This document shows, one piece after another, positions 30,879 through 36,408 of a stretch of DNA of 64,000 bases (within the stretch, counting starts at the first letter, position 1; each line of letters starts with the position of its first letter). Source of the stretch: Crocinitomicaceae bacterium (GTDB lineage: Bacteria > Bacteroidota > Bacteroidia > Flavobacteriales_D > Crocinitomicaceae); NCBI GenBank assembly GCA_024643555.1, contig JAHEMQ010000116.1, positions 1-64,000 of the forward strand, written 5' to 3'. The notes beneath the pieces were generated by a model, which saw only the letters and a list, made by a program, of their open reading frames with translations, did not search any database and was not told the DNA's origin. Both the position numbers and the translations under genes were made by a program.

Positions 30879-31646
30879 GTGCATTTGAATGTTTACTTTT
30901 ACGTCATGCGATTATACCTTTCGAATTCAGAATTCATCGAAACGACAGAGCCGATTGACATTTCGATGTCCCTTCAAGCAAATGAGCACAATGTGCGCGC
31001 TTGGTACGTGGATCCACCACGAATGGAAACCGTTCGTGCCAATGGATTTATCGGGAGTATTTCAGAAGGAGGAAGTGTGAACTTTCGTGATGTGTTTTTC
31101 AATCCACATGGACATGGAACACATACTGAATGCTGTGGACATATCACCAATGAGGTGTATTCTGTCAATGAAGTATTGAAGTCCTACTTTTGGAAGGCAA
31201 GCTTAATCAGTGTCCAACCAAGGCAATTGGAAAATGGGGATTTTGTGGTGCAAGCGGATCAAATTGCTCCCTTGATGGATGCGGGTTTTAGTGAGGCAGT
31301 CATTATTCGCACCTTACCGAATGCTCTTGAAAAGAAGTCAATGAACTATTCCGGAACGAATCCGTGTTATTTCGATGTTGCTATTGTGGATTTATTGAAC
31401 GAATACGGTGTTAAACATTTTATGGTAGATCAACCCTCGGTCGACCGAGAAGAGGATGGAGGAGCACTCGTTTTTCACCATGCTTTTTGGAACGTTCCTG
31501 GAAAGCCTAATTTTGAACGGACCATCACTGAGTTGATTTATGTGGCGGATTTTATTGAAGACGGAAATTACATTTTGGAAATCCAAATGGCGGCTTTTCA
31601 GAATGACGCGAGCCCGAGCAGACCTGTTTTGTATCGCATCCAATAA
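30879..31646 (+). CDS. Cyclase family / kynurenine-formamidase-like protein (start may be at 30906)
   Basis: VNFRDVFFNPHGHGTHTECCGHI metal-site-like motif; overall cyclase-family pattern. Confidence 0.78.
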   Translation: MHLNVYFYVMRLYLSNSEFIETTEPIDISMSLQANEHNVRAWYVDPPRMETVRANGFIGSISEGGSVNFRDVFFNPHGHGTHTECCGHITNEVYSVNEVLKSYFWKASLISVQPRQLENGDFVVQADQIAPLMDAGFSEAVIIRTLPNALEKKSMNYSGTNPCYFDVAIVDLLNEYGVKHFMVDQPSVDREEDGGALVFHHAFWNVPGKPNFERTITELIYVADFIEDGNYILEIQMAAFQNDASPSRPVLYRIQ

Positions 31647-31666: not shown

Positions 31667-32002
31667 TCCTAGTAGTAGACATTAAAGTCTGAGTGGTACG
31701 ATTTTAAGTAATAAGGACAGGGACTTCTTAAACACATTCCCGAAGGACGTCGACAAAAACTATTAAACTCTTATCAAACTAGAAAAATGAAACTGCCTCT
31801 CCAAGCAGCTTGTCAACTTCTGCGTATAAGAAGACTCCTGTTTCTCTCCTTATTTCATTTTAAAAATAGAAAGGAACTTTGGAACAAAACCTAGCAAATG
31901 AATATCCTTGCTTTGCAAATGAACATTATGCCACTTTTTATGAATATTCATTTTTCAAGTTCTGAAAAAACGGTGTTAACTGAAATATTGGGGCATAAAA
32001 AA

Positions 32003-32020
32003 AGCAGCTCGTAGGCTGCT
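32003..32020. terminator. Bidirectional terminator downstream of the YHYH gene
   Basis: agcagc-tcgtag-gctgct flanked by A7 and CTTTT. Confidence 0.7.
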
Positions 32021-32042: not shown

Positions 32043-33401
32043 TTATTGAATCACCAATTTCTTTGTTGTGGCTTGTCCTTGTATTTTTACTTGATACAGA
32101 CCTTTGTATAAGGTGTCTGCATTGAAATAAGCAATGGTACTTCCTTGAACAATGCGCTGTGTTTGAATTAATTTTCCGAAGGCATCGTACAATTCAACAG
32201 TGACCGATTGATTCTTAAACTCGTTTACTTGTACCATGATGATGTCGTTACTTGGATTTGGATAAACAGACCAATCTGAGTCGCTAAATTCGTTGATTCC
32301 AGCACTTGAAGTATAGGTGCTTACAGGTTCTGTAATGGATGTCACTTTTGTTGCCGTTTTTACACCGTAAAATGTGGGACCAACCACATAGGGATATGCG
32401 GAATTCCATTGACTATCAACAGTTGCGAAATAGCAATAAATTCCATTTGGATATTCAGGTGTAACACAGAAGCGTCCGTTGTGAATGTCTAAATAATCTG
32501 CCTGTCCTGCGTGACTGATAAATTCATAATCCTCACGAAAGTAACCAAGCGGATAGGTTGTACTCACAGCTGGTCCATCTGGCACATCTGTTCCGTCAGC
32601 CCAGACCGTTCGAGTACTGATGTTTCTCAATTGATAAGAGGATTTCATACGCGAAATTCCACCCGTGCCATCTGCATTCTTGAATCCATATGCGCCATAA
32701 ATCGGGAAACCATCGTAGGCATAACCAATAAGCGGAGAATGAACCATGGAATCAATGACATAAAGCCCGTCTGCATCGTAGAGATCACAGACATTTGAAA
32801 TCACTGTCAAATCTAATTTAAAGGCACTTGGATTTTGATGGTGGTGATAATTCCCCATGGCCGGATGACCTTTCGAGCAATCGAATCCTGGTCGTTCTGC
32901 TGGAATTGCATCTCTGTTCCAGGACATCACTGCTATTGGTCCGCCCGGACACGGAGGATTTCCTGGTCCACCGCACAGGGCATTCGCACTTGTATTCCAA
33001 GCAACGCCATCTCGGTAGTCAAACAAGGCCACTCCATTCACGAAAATACCAATGTTTCCACCTGTTGTTGCGGTAAAGGTTCCTGTGTTTTGAGCCGGAC
33101 TTAAAGGGATTTTGAATATGGCGTTTTGATTGGTTGCCAAGGATGGATTCCCATCCATAAAAGGTCCTGTAATGTAAGATGGTACTCCCGTTGTTGTCAC
33201 ATAAACCCAGTTGCTTGAATATTGTACACTTTGCACGTTCGCTAAAGTGGTTTCGTTTATTGGTGTGGAATTTCCCTGGACATAATGTCTTCCCGTAATG
33301 CCAGTAGAATTGATTAACCAATGTTCAATGGCAGGATTTAACTGTGCTACCGCTTGATTTCCGATGCACAGTATAAGGATACAACGCAGAATTTTTTTCA
33401 T
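32043..33401 (-). CDS. YHYH-domain secreted protein with T9SS C-terminal sorting domain
   Basis: GNYHHHQNPSAFKLDLT, GYAYDGFPIYGAYG; CTD SVYPNPSNDIIMVQV...YKGLYQVKIQGQATTKKLVIQ. Confidence 0.88.
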   Translation of the reverse strand: MKKILRCILILCIGNQAVAQLNPAIEHWLINSTGITGRHYVQGNSTPINETTLANVQSVQYSSNWVYVTTTGVPSYITGPFMDGNPSLATNQNAIFKIPLSPAQNTGTFTATTGGNIGIFVNGVALFDYRDGVAWNTSANALCGGPGNPPCPGGPIAVMSWNRDAIPAERPGFDCSKGHPAMGNYHHHQNPSAFKLDLTVISNVCDLYDADGLYVIDSMVHSPLIGYAYDGFPIYGAYGFKNADGTGGISRMKSSYQLRNISTRTVWADGTDVPDGPAVSTTYPLGYFREDYEFISHAGQADYLDIHNGRFCVTPEYPNGIYCYFATVDSQWNSAYPYVVGPTFYGVKTATKVTSITEPVSTYTSSAGINEFSDSDWSVYPNPSNDIIMVQVNEFKNQSVTVELYDAFGKLIQTQRIVQGSTIAYFNADTLYKGLYQVKIQGQATTKKLVIQ

Positions 33402-33425
33402 GGATATTTTTTTTAAAGTTAGATG

Positions 33426-34469
33426 TTATTTGTTTTCAAAACTTGCATTTCGTTCATTTTGAGGATACTTGAAAAGTGGATTGAATAAAAAGGTAGGATC
33501 ACTCAGTGTCTTTAAAAAGGCGATGAGGTCTTTTTGTTCATGGTCGGAAAGGGTTCGATTGAGTTTTTTCAATTCGGCACTTTTGGGTATGTTGCTGACG
33601 TGAAGTTGGCTATAATGGGCAAGTACATCCTTTAATTGTTTGAAACGTCCATCATGCATGTAGGGAAAACTAAATTCTATATTTCTGAGGGTTGGAATTT
33701 TAAAAAGTAAAGAGTCTTCAGAACGATTGGTGATCTCCATGCGGCCATAATCATTCAATTTTGGATTGATGGGAAGTCCATTAGACTTAAATTCATGTTT
33801 GGTGAACAAAGGTTCTTGGTGACAGGAAGCGCAATATTTTTTAAACAAGGAGTAGCCCGCGCTTTCCTGTTCAGTGAATTTGGCGTGGTGATTTTTCACA
33901 TGGTCGTATTTTGATGCTGCGGAAACCAATCCAATAGTGAAATTCGAAAGTGCTTTCAGTAGTAAATCCGTAGTTATTGTGCTTTCTCCGAATGCTTGGT
34001 AAAATCGTTTTCGATAAAAAGTCGAGTTGTTTAAGCGTCTGAGAACCTCATGGAGTGTATTGTCCATTTCCTTGGCATGCGTCAATGGATTGATCGCTTG
34101 CTTGTTTAGAGAACTGACACCGCCATCCCAATGAAAGGAATTTTGCCAAGCTAAGTTGATGAGAACAGGTGAATTTCGCGTCCCAATTTTACCATCGATT
34201 CCATGGCTCAAGGCGTGATCAATGTGCGTAAATCCCGAATATTGTAAATGGCAATTGGCACAGGAAATCGTACTGTCACGCGATAAGTCCGGGTCATAAA
34301 ACAAGCTTCGACCTAATTCAAATTTATCCAAACTGATTGGATTAGCTTCAAAATCATAGCTAGGCAAAGGCCAGTGTTTTGGAACATAAAAGGGATGTTC
34401 ATTTCGGGTAGCACTGAAAATGAATACCAGTGTAAGCAACATACCAAATATGCGGAGAAGGAGTTTCAT
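33426..34469 (-). CDS. Di-haem cytochrome c peroxidase family protein (MauG/MbnH-like)
   Basis: Two CXXCH motifs (ISCANCHLQYSGFTH, KKYCASCHQEPLFT), GIDGKIGTRNSPVLINLAWQNSFHWDGG, FPYMHDGRFKQLKDVL. Confidence 0.9.
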   Translation of the reverse strand: MKLLLRIFGMLLTLVFIFSATRNEHPFYVPKHWPLPSYDFEANPISLDKFELGRSLFYDPDLSRDSTISCANCHLQYSGFTHIDHALSHGIDGKIGTRNSPVLINLAWQNSFHWDGGVSSLNKQAINPLTHAKEMDNTLHEVLRRLNNSTFYRKRFYQAFGESTITTDLLLKALSNFTIGLVSAASKYDHVKNHHAKFTEQESAGYSLFKKYCASCHQEPLFTKHEFKSNGLPINPKLNDYGRMEITNRSEDSLLFKIPTLRNIEFSFPYMHDGRFKQLKDVLAHYSQLHVSNIPKSAELKKLNRTLSDHEQKDLIAFLKTLSDPTFLFNPLFKYPQNERNASFENK

Positions 34470-35116
34470 TTCGTAAAAAACTGGCGGGCAATAATTTGGC
34501 AGTAACTTTTCGCTAAAGCGCCTGGAATCATGATGCGTTGCGTTGTTTTCAAAGGTTCCGTCTGTTCAAAAAAGGCTTGTAAATCTAGAATGAGCCGATC
34601 TCCTTGTATGACTAAGGAAATTGGGACGATCGTTTTATTTGGTTGGTGATAGCCTCCCAAATGGAATTCAAAAGATTGATCATCCATTGGAAGTATGCTT
34701 GCATTACCAACACATTTAAATTGGATGTACCCTGAATTCCAAGCCCAATACATTCCTTTCAGTGGATCTAAATCGCCTTCAACAGATGCTGAAACGTGAT
34801 AGGAGGAATCGAGTCCGAATTGAAAGGTTAAGCTATCGTAGCCATCAATGGGAAAATCAGGAAAAAGCAATAAAGACTTTTCATCAGCGGCATCTACGAG
34901 GTGCGCGCCTAAGACGATTTGTTTACGGTTAGATTTTATGAATTGAAAATCGGAAAGGTACATTTTCAGTTCGTCGAAGGAAATGGAATCATTTCCCAAT
35001 GGATAGGATTTGTTTAGCGAAATGATTTCTTTGCCCCATTGAAATTGCAGGTGCAATTGTCCGCTGACTTGTTGTGCGAGTAAAAGAAAAGCCAGAAGAA
35101 ATTTTCTGAACATCAT
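34466..35116 (-). CDS. MbnP-family-like copper-binding protein
   Basis: DSISFDELKMYLSDFQF, FGLDSSYHVSASVEGDLDPLKGMYWAWNSGYIQFKCVG, FEFHLGGY; 4-nt overlap with the di-haem peroxidase gene. Confidence 0.82.
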   Translation of the reverse strand: MMFRKFLLAFLLLAQQVSGQLHLQFQWGKEIISLNKSYPLGNDSISFDELKMYLSDFQFIKSNRKQIVLGAHLVDAADEKSLLLFPDFPIDGYDSLTFQFGLDSSYHVSASVEGDLDPLKGMYWAWNSGYIQFKCVGNASILPMDDQSFEFHLGGYHQPNKTIVPISLVIQGDRLILDLQAFFEQTEPLKTTQRIMIPGALAKSYCQIIARQFFTK

Positions 35117-35550
35117 GGGCGTGGACCTGGACGATCACTGCGTTCAATCATTCGATGAACTACTTCCGCTAATTTTTTTGCTTGTTTTGCCGTGCAATGT
35201 GTTTTCACTCGAGTGAAATGCTCAAACGTACATGCATCAATTTTCGATTGAAGGGCGCCAATCTTCTCATAAATTTGCTGATTATGAAGCTTTGATTGGT
35301 TATCTAATTTGATTTGAGTGCGCAGTTCTTTTTGCTGCTCCAAATAGTGATTCTTTTCTGCCAGGTGTTGTTTGAATTCAATGTCCACCCATTTCGCTGC
35401 TGAGCCTTTCATTTTTAATATGTGGCTTAAACGAGGAGGATGGGGTGGGAATCCAGGTTTTCTGTCTTGCATCAATTGGACCAACATGAGTACATTAACT
35501 AAGATAAGAATACTCAATAAAAGGTATAAAAGTCGATTTGTTTTCATCAT
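35113..35550 (-). CDS. Periplasmic heavy-metal sensor / CnrX-CpxP-Spy-like protein
   Basis: Single N-terminal TM then all-helical Lys/Glu/Gln-rich region with His (FPPHPPRLSHILKMKG...HLAEKNHYLEQQKELRTQIK...). Confidence 0.65.
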   Translation of the reverse strand: MMKTNRLLYLLLSILILVNVLMLVQLMQDRKPGFPPHPPRLSHILKMKGSAAKWVDIEFKQHLAEKNHYLEQQKELRTQIKLDNQSKLHNQQIYEKIGALQSKIDACTFEHFTRVKTHCTAKQAKKLAEVVHRMIERSDRPGPRP

Positions 35551-35553
35551 TCG

Positions 35554-35802
35554 TTAGATGGAAAGATTAGAGCCAAAATTAGCATATTGTGTTTCAAGAA
35601 GTTGTTCTTCCGCCAATTTTTCTTGTTGCGCACTAAAAAAAGCTAGGTTTAACATCACGCAAACGAAGGTTGCAATAATGAATGTTGTTGTTCTTCGTTT
35701 TAGTCTTTTAGCCTGTTGTGGAGCTTGCAAGAGTTTTTCGTGCAGTGAAGGTGAAACTTCAATTTGTTCCATTGGAAAGAAATGTTCGTTCGAATTATTC
35801 AT
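35554..35802 (-). CDS. Short single-pass membrane protein, putative anti-sigma factor
   Basis: 82 aa: ~38-aa cytosolic N-terminus, TM TTFIIATFVCVMLNLAFFS, short C-terminal tail; directly downstream of the ECF sigma gene. Confidence 0.6.
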   Translation of the reverse strand: MNNSNEHFFPMEQIEVSPSLHEKLLQAPQQAKRLKRRTTTFIIATFVCVMLNLAFFSAQQEKLAEEQLLETQYANFGSNLSI

Positions 35803-35838
35803 GTGTTTTTAGATGTTATCCCATTGTAAATCTTGTGG

Positions 35839-36408
35839 TTAGATCTCATTATTTTTAATGGTTGTGTTTAATTGTTGTTTTAGTTGCTGTTTGGCTCTAA
35901 AAATGAGTGACTCGACAGCAGATAAAGAAAGATTCATACTTTCGCTGATTTCCTTGTAACTGAATTCTTCCATGTGATGTAAGGTGTAAGAAATGCGTTG
36001 ATTTTCGGAAAGTTGTTGGACGGCATTCAAAAAAACATAGGTGCGTTCTTTTTGCATCAGTGCTTGTTCCGGATTTTTGTCAAGATCGATGGTTTGATCT
36101 GAAAATGCAATATCAATGCGTTGATGAATGCCAAACCTTTTCTTTCGTTTGGCTTTTCGTATGTATTCGAGGCATTTGTTTAGTGTGATGCGGTGAATCC
36201 ATGTGGATAATTTTGAATCCCCTTTAAATCTTGAAATGGATTGATAAATGGTTAAAAAAATGTCCTGTGTCGCATCTTCTGCTTCTTCTTTATTCTGAAG
36301 AATGTACCAGCACATATTTAGTACTTTTTTCTCATAGGTGAGTACGAGTGCTTCGAATGCCTTAACATCGCCGCGTTGTAACGCCTGTATATCAATTTCT
36401 ATGGACAC
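35839..36408 (-). CDS. RNA polymerase sigma-70 factor, ECF subfamily
   Basis: ALVLTYEKKVLNMCWYILQNKEEAEDATQDIFLTIYQSISRFKGDSKLSTWIHRITLNKCLEYIRKAKR; region 4 FSYKEISESMNLSLSAVESLIFRAKQQLKQQL. Confidence 0.93.
   Translation of the reverse strand: MSIEIDIQALQRGDVKAFEALVLTYEKKVLNMCWYILQNKEEAEDATQDIFLTIYQSISRFKGDSKLSTWIHRITLNKCLEYIRKAKRKKRFGIHQRIDIAFSDQTIDLDKNPEQALMQKERTYVFLNAVQQLSENQRISYTLHHMEEFSYKEISESMNLSLSAVESLIFRAKQQLKQQLNTTIKNNEI

Follow-up and report, generated by a model that had tools for sequence, protein, structure and literature searches.

Conversion of a tryptophan to kynurenine is known to form a copper site in members of the MbnP/MbnH family, and a 2021 paper reportedly describes copper binding that depends on this kynurenine. 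Isolated MbnP/MbnH pairs in methanotrophs lie near TonB receptors and MbnI/MbnR regulators (PMC3621798, PMC9601215), and among two further methanotroph systems, MopE/SACCP and CorA/CorB, whose sequences are not markedly similar, the MopE copper site contains kynurenine (PMC3621798). The YHYH domain is known from jumbo phages, where its histidine triad and an aspartate are predicted to be the zinc site of a phage-tail hydrolase (PMC7824862). Here we describe a locus in a 64,000-nucleotide stretch of contig JAHEMQ010000116.1 (assembly GCA_024643555.1) of a Crocinitomicaceae bacterium, referred to below as the window, in which genes for an extracytoplasmic function (ECF) sigma factor, an 82-residue protein with a single transmembrane (TM) segment, a 145-residue anchored protein, an MbnP, an MbnH and a YHYH protein follow one another 5′ to 3′. 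We think it likely that the six genes are one operon in which a membrane-held ECF switch drives an extracytoplasmic copper-protein module; the architecture is well supported and the role of copper fairly supported. The literature available to us, which is incomplete, contained no paper combining MbnP with YHYH or describing a sigma/TM/sensor set together with MbnP/MbnH and YHYH.

The six-gene locus and its conservation

All six open reading frames are on the minus strand, from position 36408 down to 32043 (Table 1), and they are closely packed. The largest gap, 36 nt, is between the sigma and TM genes, with 3 nt between the TM and sensor genes and 24 nt between MbnH and YHYH, and there are 4-bp overlaps at both the sensor/MbnP and the MbnP/MbnH junctions. 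A terminator scan of the window placed no minus-strand terminator-like site between the six genes; the stem downstream of YHYH was listed by the same scan on the plus strand (32003-32020). A GNAT gene on the same strand ends 35 nt before the GTG start of the sigma gene and itself abuts sprA (SprA_N match, 4.7e-176), a gene of the type IX secretion system (T9SS), and because of this proximity a promoter belonging to the sigma gene is not obvious.

Table 1. Features of the six-gene locus, in window coordinates
Feature	Position	Strand	Evidence
ECF sigma factor of 189 aa, starting at GTG	35839..36408	-	Sigma70_r2 1.6e-16 and Sigma70_r4_2 1.4e-15 (Pfam); TIGR02937 over cut-off
82-aa single-pass protein, candidate anti-sigma	35554..35802	-	KRLKRR basic stretch before TM segment; N-terminus inside
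Candidate periplasmic sensor, a 145-aa helical protein anchored at its N-terminus	35113..35550	-	Conserved H62, E105, F112, C119, Q123
MbnP-family protein, 216 aa, signal peptide	34466..35116	-	PF20243 2.4e-31, 109.5 bits vs cut-off 27; WxW (W124, W126); invariant H152
MbnH/MauG-like di-haem enzyme, 347 aa	33426..34469	-	CCP_MauG PF03150 3.9e-50; two CxxCH; Tyr286
YHYH protein, 452 aa, T9SS type A sorting domain	32043..33401	-	PF14240 1.5e-57, 195.2 bits vs cut-off 25; Por_Secre_tail 7e-13
Terminator-like stem AGCAGC/GCTGCT plus seven T	31996..32020	-	Read from letters; 23 nt past YHYH stop

A scan with the window's MbnP, using one genome per species, gave 44 loci, all in Bacteroidota according to their titles, and the sigma, sensor and MbnP genes follow the window's order in 25 of these, with an 82-115 aa single-TM protein in the middle slot of 24 of the 25. 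In a sample of 120 genomes from the same taxonomic order there are 31 strong matches to the sensor, of which 20 adjoin MbnP and three share a cluster with YHYH and no MbnP. Every sensor match for which the neighbourhood was examined is part of a sigma-TM-sensor trio, the TM slot being not resolved in one (G045, the same locus as L086). In a tree of 101 MbnPs from Bacteroidota a branch with SH-aLRT 99 separates two groups, and on the window's side 46 of the 49 are linked, 34 to the trio and 12 to a downstream YHYH only; most of these 49 were recruited by similarity to the window's MbnP, and the linkage labels are independent of that. On the other side, which includes the two further MbnPs of the same genome, none of the 52 has a trio or a downstream YHYH, and two (L063 and L070) have YHYH upstream of MbnP. 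Of 148 genomes sampled evenly across the phylum, 39 have MbnP and only a few have the trio beside it, so that the arrangement is a minority, clade-specific one. An earlier reading of this DNA made from its letters and open reading frames (the sequence-only reading) had described six tightly spaced genes in this order and with these lengths, as we confirm, and had named conserved co-occurrence in related genomes as one test of its interpretation; this co-occurrence is strong both in the locus counts and in the MbnP tree.

The trio also heads other units. It precedes YHYH(-YHYH)-MORN-SCO1 in L105 and L176, and likewise in L152 where the start is cut off, YHYH alone without MbnP/MbnH in L121, L122 and L160, a multicopper oxidase-redoxin-YHYH unit in L109, and MbnP-MbnH-multicopper oxidase in L023. 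Units with CotH follow it in L110 and L005; together with the cargo of L120 (see below) these may represent another class of surface cargo.

Proteins of the switch and the MbnP/MbnH pair

The nearest solved relatives of the sigma factor are AlgU, RpoE and SigW, which score far better than CnrH (1.8e-7). The 82-aa protein has no Pfam or NCBIfam match over cut-off, and a protein of the same size and topology recurs in the same slot in 24 other loci, with a conserved pattern in the paired alignment. Because the sigma and TM genes share one frame, a fused read-through product could be folded, with stops read as glutamine and with ten read-through products of the same kind plus seven sigma proteins in the alignment. 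The model has a pLDDT of 74 and a pTM of 0.58. Foldseek superposes it on CnrH-CnrY at 3.0 Å with a TM-score of 0.82 by target, a comparison that has no sigma-alone control and in which the contact was not inspected, and on the SigW-RsiW complex with a TM-score of 0.84; ECF sigma factors bound to RNA polymerase mostly superpose at 21-28 Å. The model thus favours a compact arrangement of sigma resembling the CnrY-bound form.

The 145-aa protein of the window itself matches no Pfam or NCBIfam family over cut-off. Its relatives in the same position match Metal_resist (PF13801; 12 of 23) and LTXXQ (PF07813; 8 of 23), and in a comparison of the sensor-relative profile with solved structures Spy is the best match (6e-5) and NccX a weak one (0.16). 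These matches of its relatives support membership of the Spy/CnrX superfamily, and the expectation of the sequence-only reading that the protein would be CnrX/CpxP-like is supported in this way.

The tryptophans of the WxW motif in MbnP are retained in almost all relatives (W124 in 99 of 100, W126 in 94 of 100), and a sequence comparison of MbnP with the PDB gave no match. Both CxxCH motifs are present in all 102 MbnH relatives, and Tyr286 in 98 of them. The second-best solved relative of the window's MbnH is 6e1c (‘Di-heme enzyme’, 1.5e-39), which we take to be Methylosinus MbnH; Tyr286 aligns with a tyrosine there and, in the peroxidase 1iqc, apparently with a methionine. The retained WxW, both CxxCH motifs and the MbnH-position tyrosine agree with the earlier description of an MbnP-like and MbnH-like pair.

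There are two further MbnP-MbnH pairs in the same genome (L002 and L003), belonging to the other MbnP clade and without the sigma, sensor or downstream YHYH. Several longer MbnPs (L073, L081, L085, L089, L092 and L093) have a C-terminus that matched a profile containing the sorting domain, and these are probably T9SS cargo themselves. A putative cyclase gene (PF04199; weakly kynurenine-formamidase-like) at 30879-31646 on the plus strand converges on the operon, and we rejected it as a partner because L004, the nearest relative, was the one other locus where a similar gene was seen in that place, and because there is no clear signal peptide.

YHYH proteins and their copper neighbours

The sorting domain of the YHYH protein also matches TIGR04183 (44.1 bits against a cut-off of 23), and with sprA next door this supports export through the T9SS, as had been proposed from the sequence. 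Residues D174, H179, H186, H188 and D230 are invariant in an alignment of 30 relatives. For an AlphaFold2 model of the YHYH protein (pLDDT 79) the PDB matches were confined to folds of the T9SS tail and of immunoglobulin-like type, with none for the core, and the structure therefore gave no function.

We identified YHYH genes with a domain-only profile from which the sorting domain was excluded. Within 39 Bacteroidota genomes containing 61 YHYH genes, 19 of 89 SCO1/SenC genes are no more than 3 kb from a YHYH gene, compared to 0.21 expected by position (Poisson P about 1e-30, which is a guide only, as related genomes are not independent); several of the adjacent SCO1/SenC genes were confirmed as PF02630. 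A unit that recurs across many families of Bacteroidota consists of YHYH, often a MORN-type lipoprotein-like protein of ~200 aa, and then SCO1/SenC (L103, L153-L157, L162-L166, L168, L169, L173-L176). Further YHYH genes adjoin MbnP/MbnH or T9SS multicopper oxidases, and five of 14 multicopper oxidases are near YHYH, a count that is descriptive only as the genomes were partly chosen for it. Many YHYH genes have no copper-linked neighbour in view, some of them being on short stretches.

One example is on another contig (C99) of the same genome, where a T9SS multicopper oxidase, an AhpC/TSA-type redoxin and YHYH are adjacent (L106:2198-6131) with no trio nearby. No Cu-oxidase_2 match other than this oxidase was found in the genome (the assembly is 86% complete), the gene order recurs in L109, L158 and L159, and the cluster would be a natural candidate for a target of the sigma factor in trans. 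Plasmid matches of YHYH are few; in a Deinococcus plasmid (L178, NZ_CP092194.1) a HupE/UreJ-family gene begins 4 bp after YHYH, a possible link to metal outside the Bacteroidota.

A copper link for YHYH (PF14240, of unknown function) is new here and comes from gene neighbourhood. The same invariant histidines and aspartate are predicted to be a zinc site, but the genes around YHYH in Bacteroidota favour copper as the metal. We tentatively suggest, as a possibility rather than an expectation, that YHYH is a copper protein family with an exported three-histidine/aspartate copper site working alongside MbnP/MbnH, SCO1-like chaperones and multicopper oxidases, and that in Bacteroidota one ECF/anti-sigma/sensor trio governs a regulon devoted to copper at the cell surface.

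Alternative explanations and comparison with known systems

For the operon we infer the following course of events. The cytoplasmic N-terminal ~40 residues of the 82-aa protein would hold the sigma factor at the inner membrane, as CnrY holds CnrH, and the anchored Spy/CnrX-like protein would sense a signal in the periplasm, for which copper or the damage it causes is the most likely candidate, and release sigma. Transcription of the operon, and perhaps of remote targets such as the oxidase-redoxin-YHYH cluster, would follow. MbnP and MbnH would pass to the periplasm, where we assume that MbnH oxidises an MbnP tryptophan to kynurenine and so makes a copper site, and the YHYH protein would be exported via the T9SS and bind metal, probably copper, through its three histidines and aspartate.

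Several observations weigh against a copper-responsive operon of this kind. The read-through model is a poor fit to the AlgU-MucA and RpoE-RseA complexes, which superpose on it at 13-14 Å with no sigma-alone control. The conserved histidine and cysteine of the sensor are not strictly retained in the L116, L120, L160 and L176 trios. MbnP scores 27.9 bits against the TIGR04052 equivalog cut-off of 140, and the best NCBIfam match of MbnH, TIGR04039 (5.9e-58, 196.5 bits), is under its cut-off of 362.85, so that both are relatives of the methanotroph proteins and not those proteins themselves. Among the 31 order-wide sensor matches eight show no copper-linked cargo in view, and the L120 trio precedes EF-hand, VTC and DUF4956 genes (L120:3377-6535). 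These last observations, along with CotH at L110 and L005, are what would be expected if the trio were a general envelope-stress switch in which a Spy/CpxP-type chaperone sensor reads misfolded or surface-exported proteins rather than metal, the cargo being mixed secreted proteins; Spy is the solved structure that the sensor profile matches best, LTXXQ is found in 8 of 23 relatives, and many of the cargo proteins are T9SS clients. We nonetheless regard such a switch as unlikely, given that the cargo is mostly copper-linked (MbnP/MbnH, SCO1, multicopper oxidases) and that 12 of 23 sensors match Metal_resist.

The upstream region bears on whether the genes are transcribed together at all. A dyad search of ~200 nt upstream of sigma across the trio loci, which adds to the evidence against our interpretation, found no shared promoter motif; it gave AT-rich pairs only, in at most six loci compared to up to five in shuffles. 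We did not accept a shared ECF promoter, and autoregulation by sigma is accordingly unproven. Together with the start of sigma just after the GNAT gene that abuts sprA, this would fit six neighbours without common control, a GNAT/sprA transcript reading into sigma and the sigma factor acting on other targets. However, the gene order persists in divergent Bacteroidota with different flanking genes, the trio also precedes YHYH at loci lacking MbnP/MbnH (L105, L121, L122, L160, L176), and two junctions have 4-bp overlaps, and we consider separate transcription highly improbable. A different alternative concerns YHYH, which could be a hydrolase that depends on zinc and has the cell surface or neighbouring cells as its target, its proximity to copper genes reflecting shared export or the timing of stress. 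The residues of the zinc site predicted for jumbo phage tails (PMC7824862) are the ones invariant here, but the linkage to SCO1 (19 compared to 0.21 expected), MbnP/MbnH and multicopper oxidases, none of which is evidently tied to hydrolysis, makes this somewhat unlikely. The suggestion of the sequence-only reading that YHYH is a further component of a copper system is strengthened by the independent neighbourhoods with SCO1 and oxidases, and that reading as a whole is partly supported.

MbnP/MbnH pairs are widespread outside methanotrophs, where little is known of their control, and one clade is now tied to a putative trans-envelope switch and to surface export. YHYH, an uncharacterised Pfam family found also in phages and diatoms, gains a testable copper role that rivals the published zinc-hydrolase prediction and that we propose because of the strong SCO1 linkage. 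It shares with the YHYH of jumbo phage tails and baseplates, a predicted zinc hydrolase, the named domain and the conserved histidine triad and aspartate, but is a bacterial protein with predicted T9SS export among copper genes and is not in a virion.

The window's MbnP and MbnH are like those of methanobactin producers (GenProp0940; e.g. Methylosinus) in being an adjacent pair from the same Pfam families with the WxW and di-haem motifs, and differ in scoring under the TIGR04052 and TIGR04039 cut-offs and in having no methanobactin genes. The isolated methanotroph pairs are accompanied by MbnI/MbnR and TonB receptors and not by a CnrYX-like pair. In MopE/SACCP and CorA/CorB of methanotrophs, too, a surface protein binds copper and has a di-haem partner, although no sigma/sensor trio or YHYH is described for them in PMC3621798. 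The closest match for the switch is CnrH/CnrY/CnrX and NccX of Cupriavidus, which sense nickel and cobalt and likewise combine an ECF sigma factor, a short protein with a single membrane pass and a helical periplasmic protein that is anchored; 12 of the 23 sensor relatives match Metal_resist, and the fused sigma-TM model superposes on CnrY-bound CnrH. In contrast, the window's sigma factor is nearer to RpoE, AlgU and SigW, the 82-aa protein has no family match, the NccX match reaches only E 0.16, and the cargo is copper-linked secreted proteins rather than a resistance-nodulation-division (RND) efflux pump, in a different phylum. The proposal of a CnrHYX-like module holds for the set of sigma, single-pass and anchored genes but not for the kinship of the sigma factor. 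The switch is CnrHYX-like and not a proven CnrHYX member, and the operon as a whole resembles CnrHYX joined to MbnPH.

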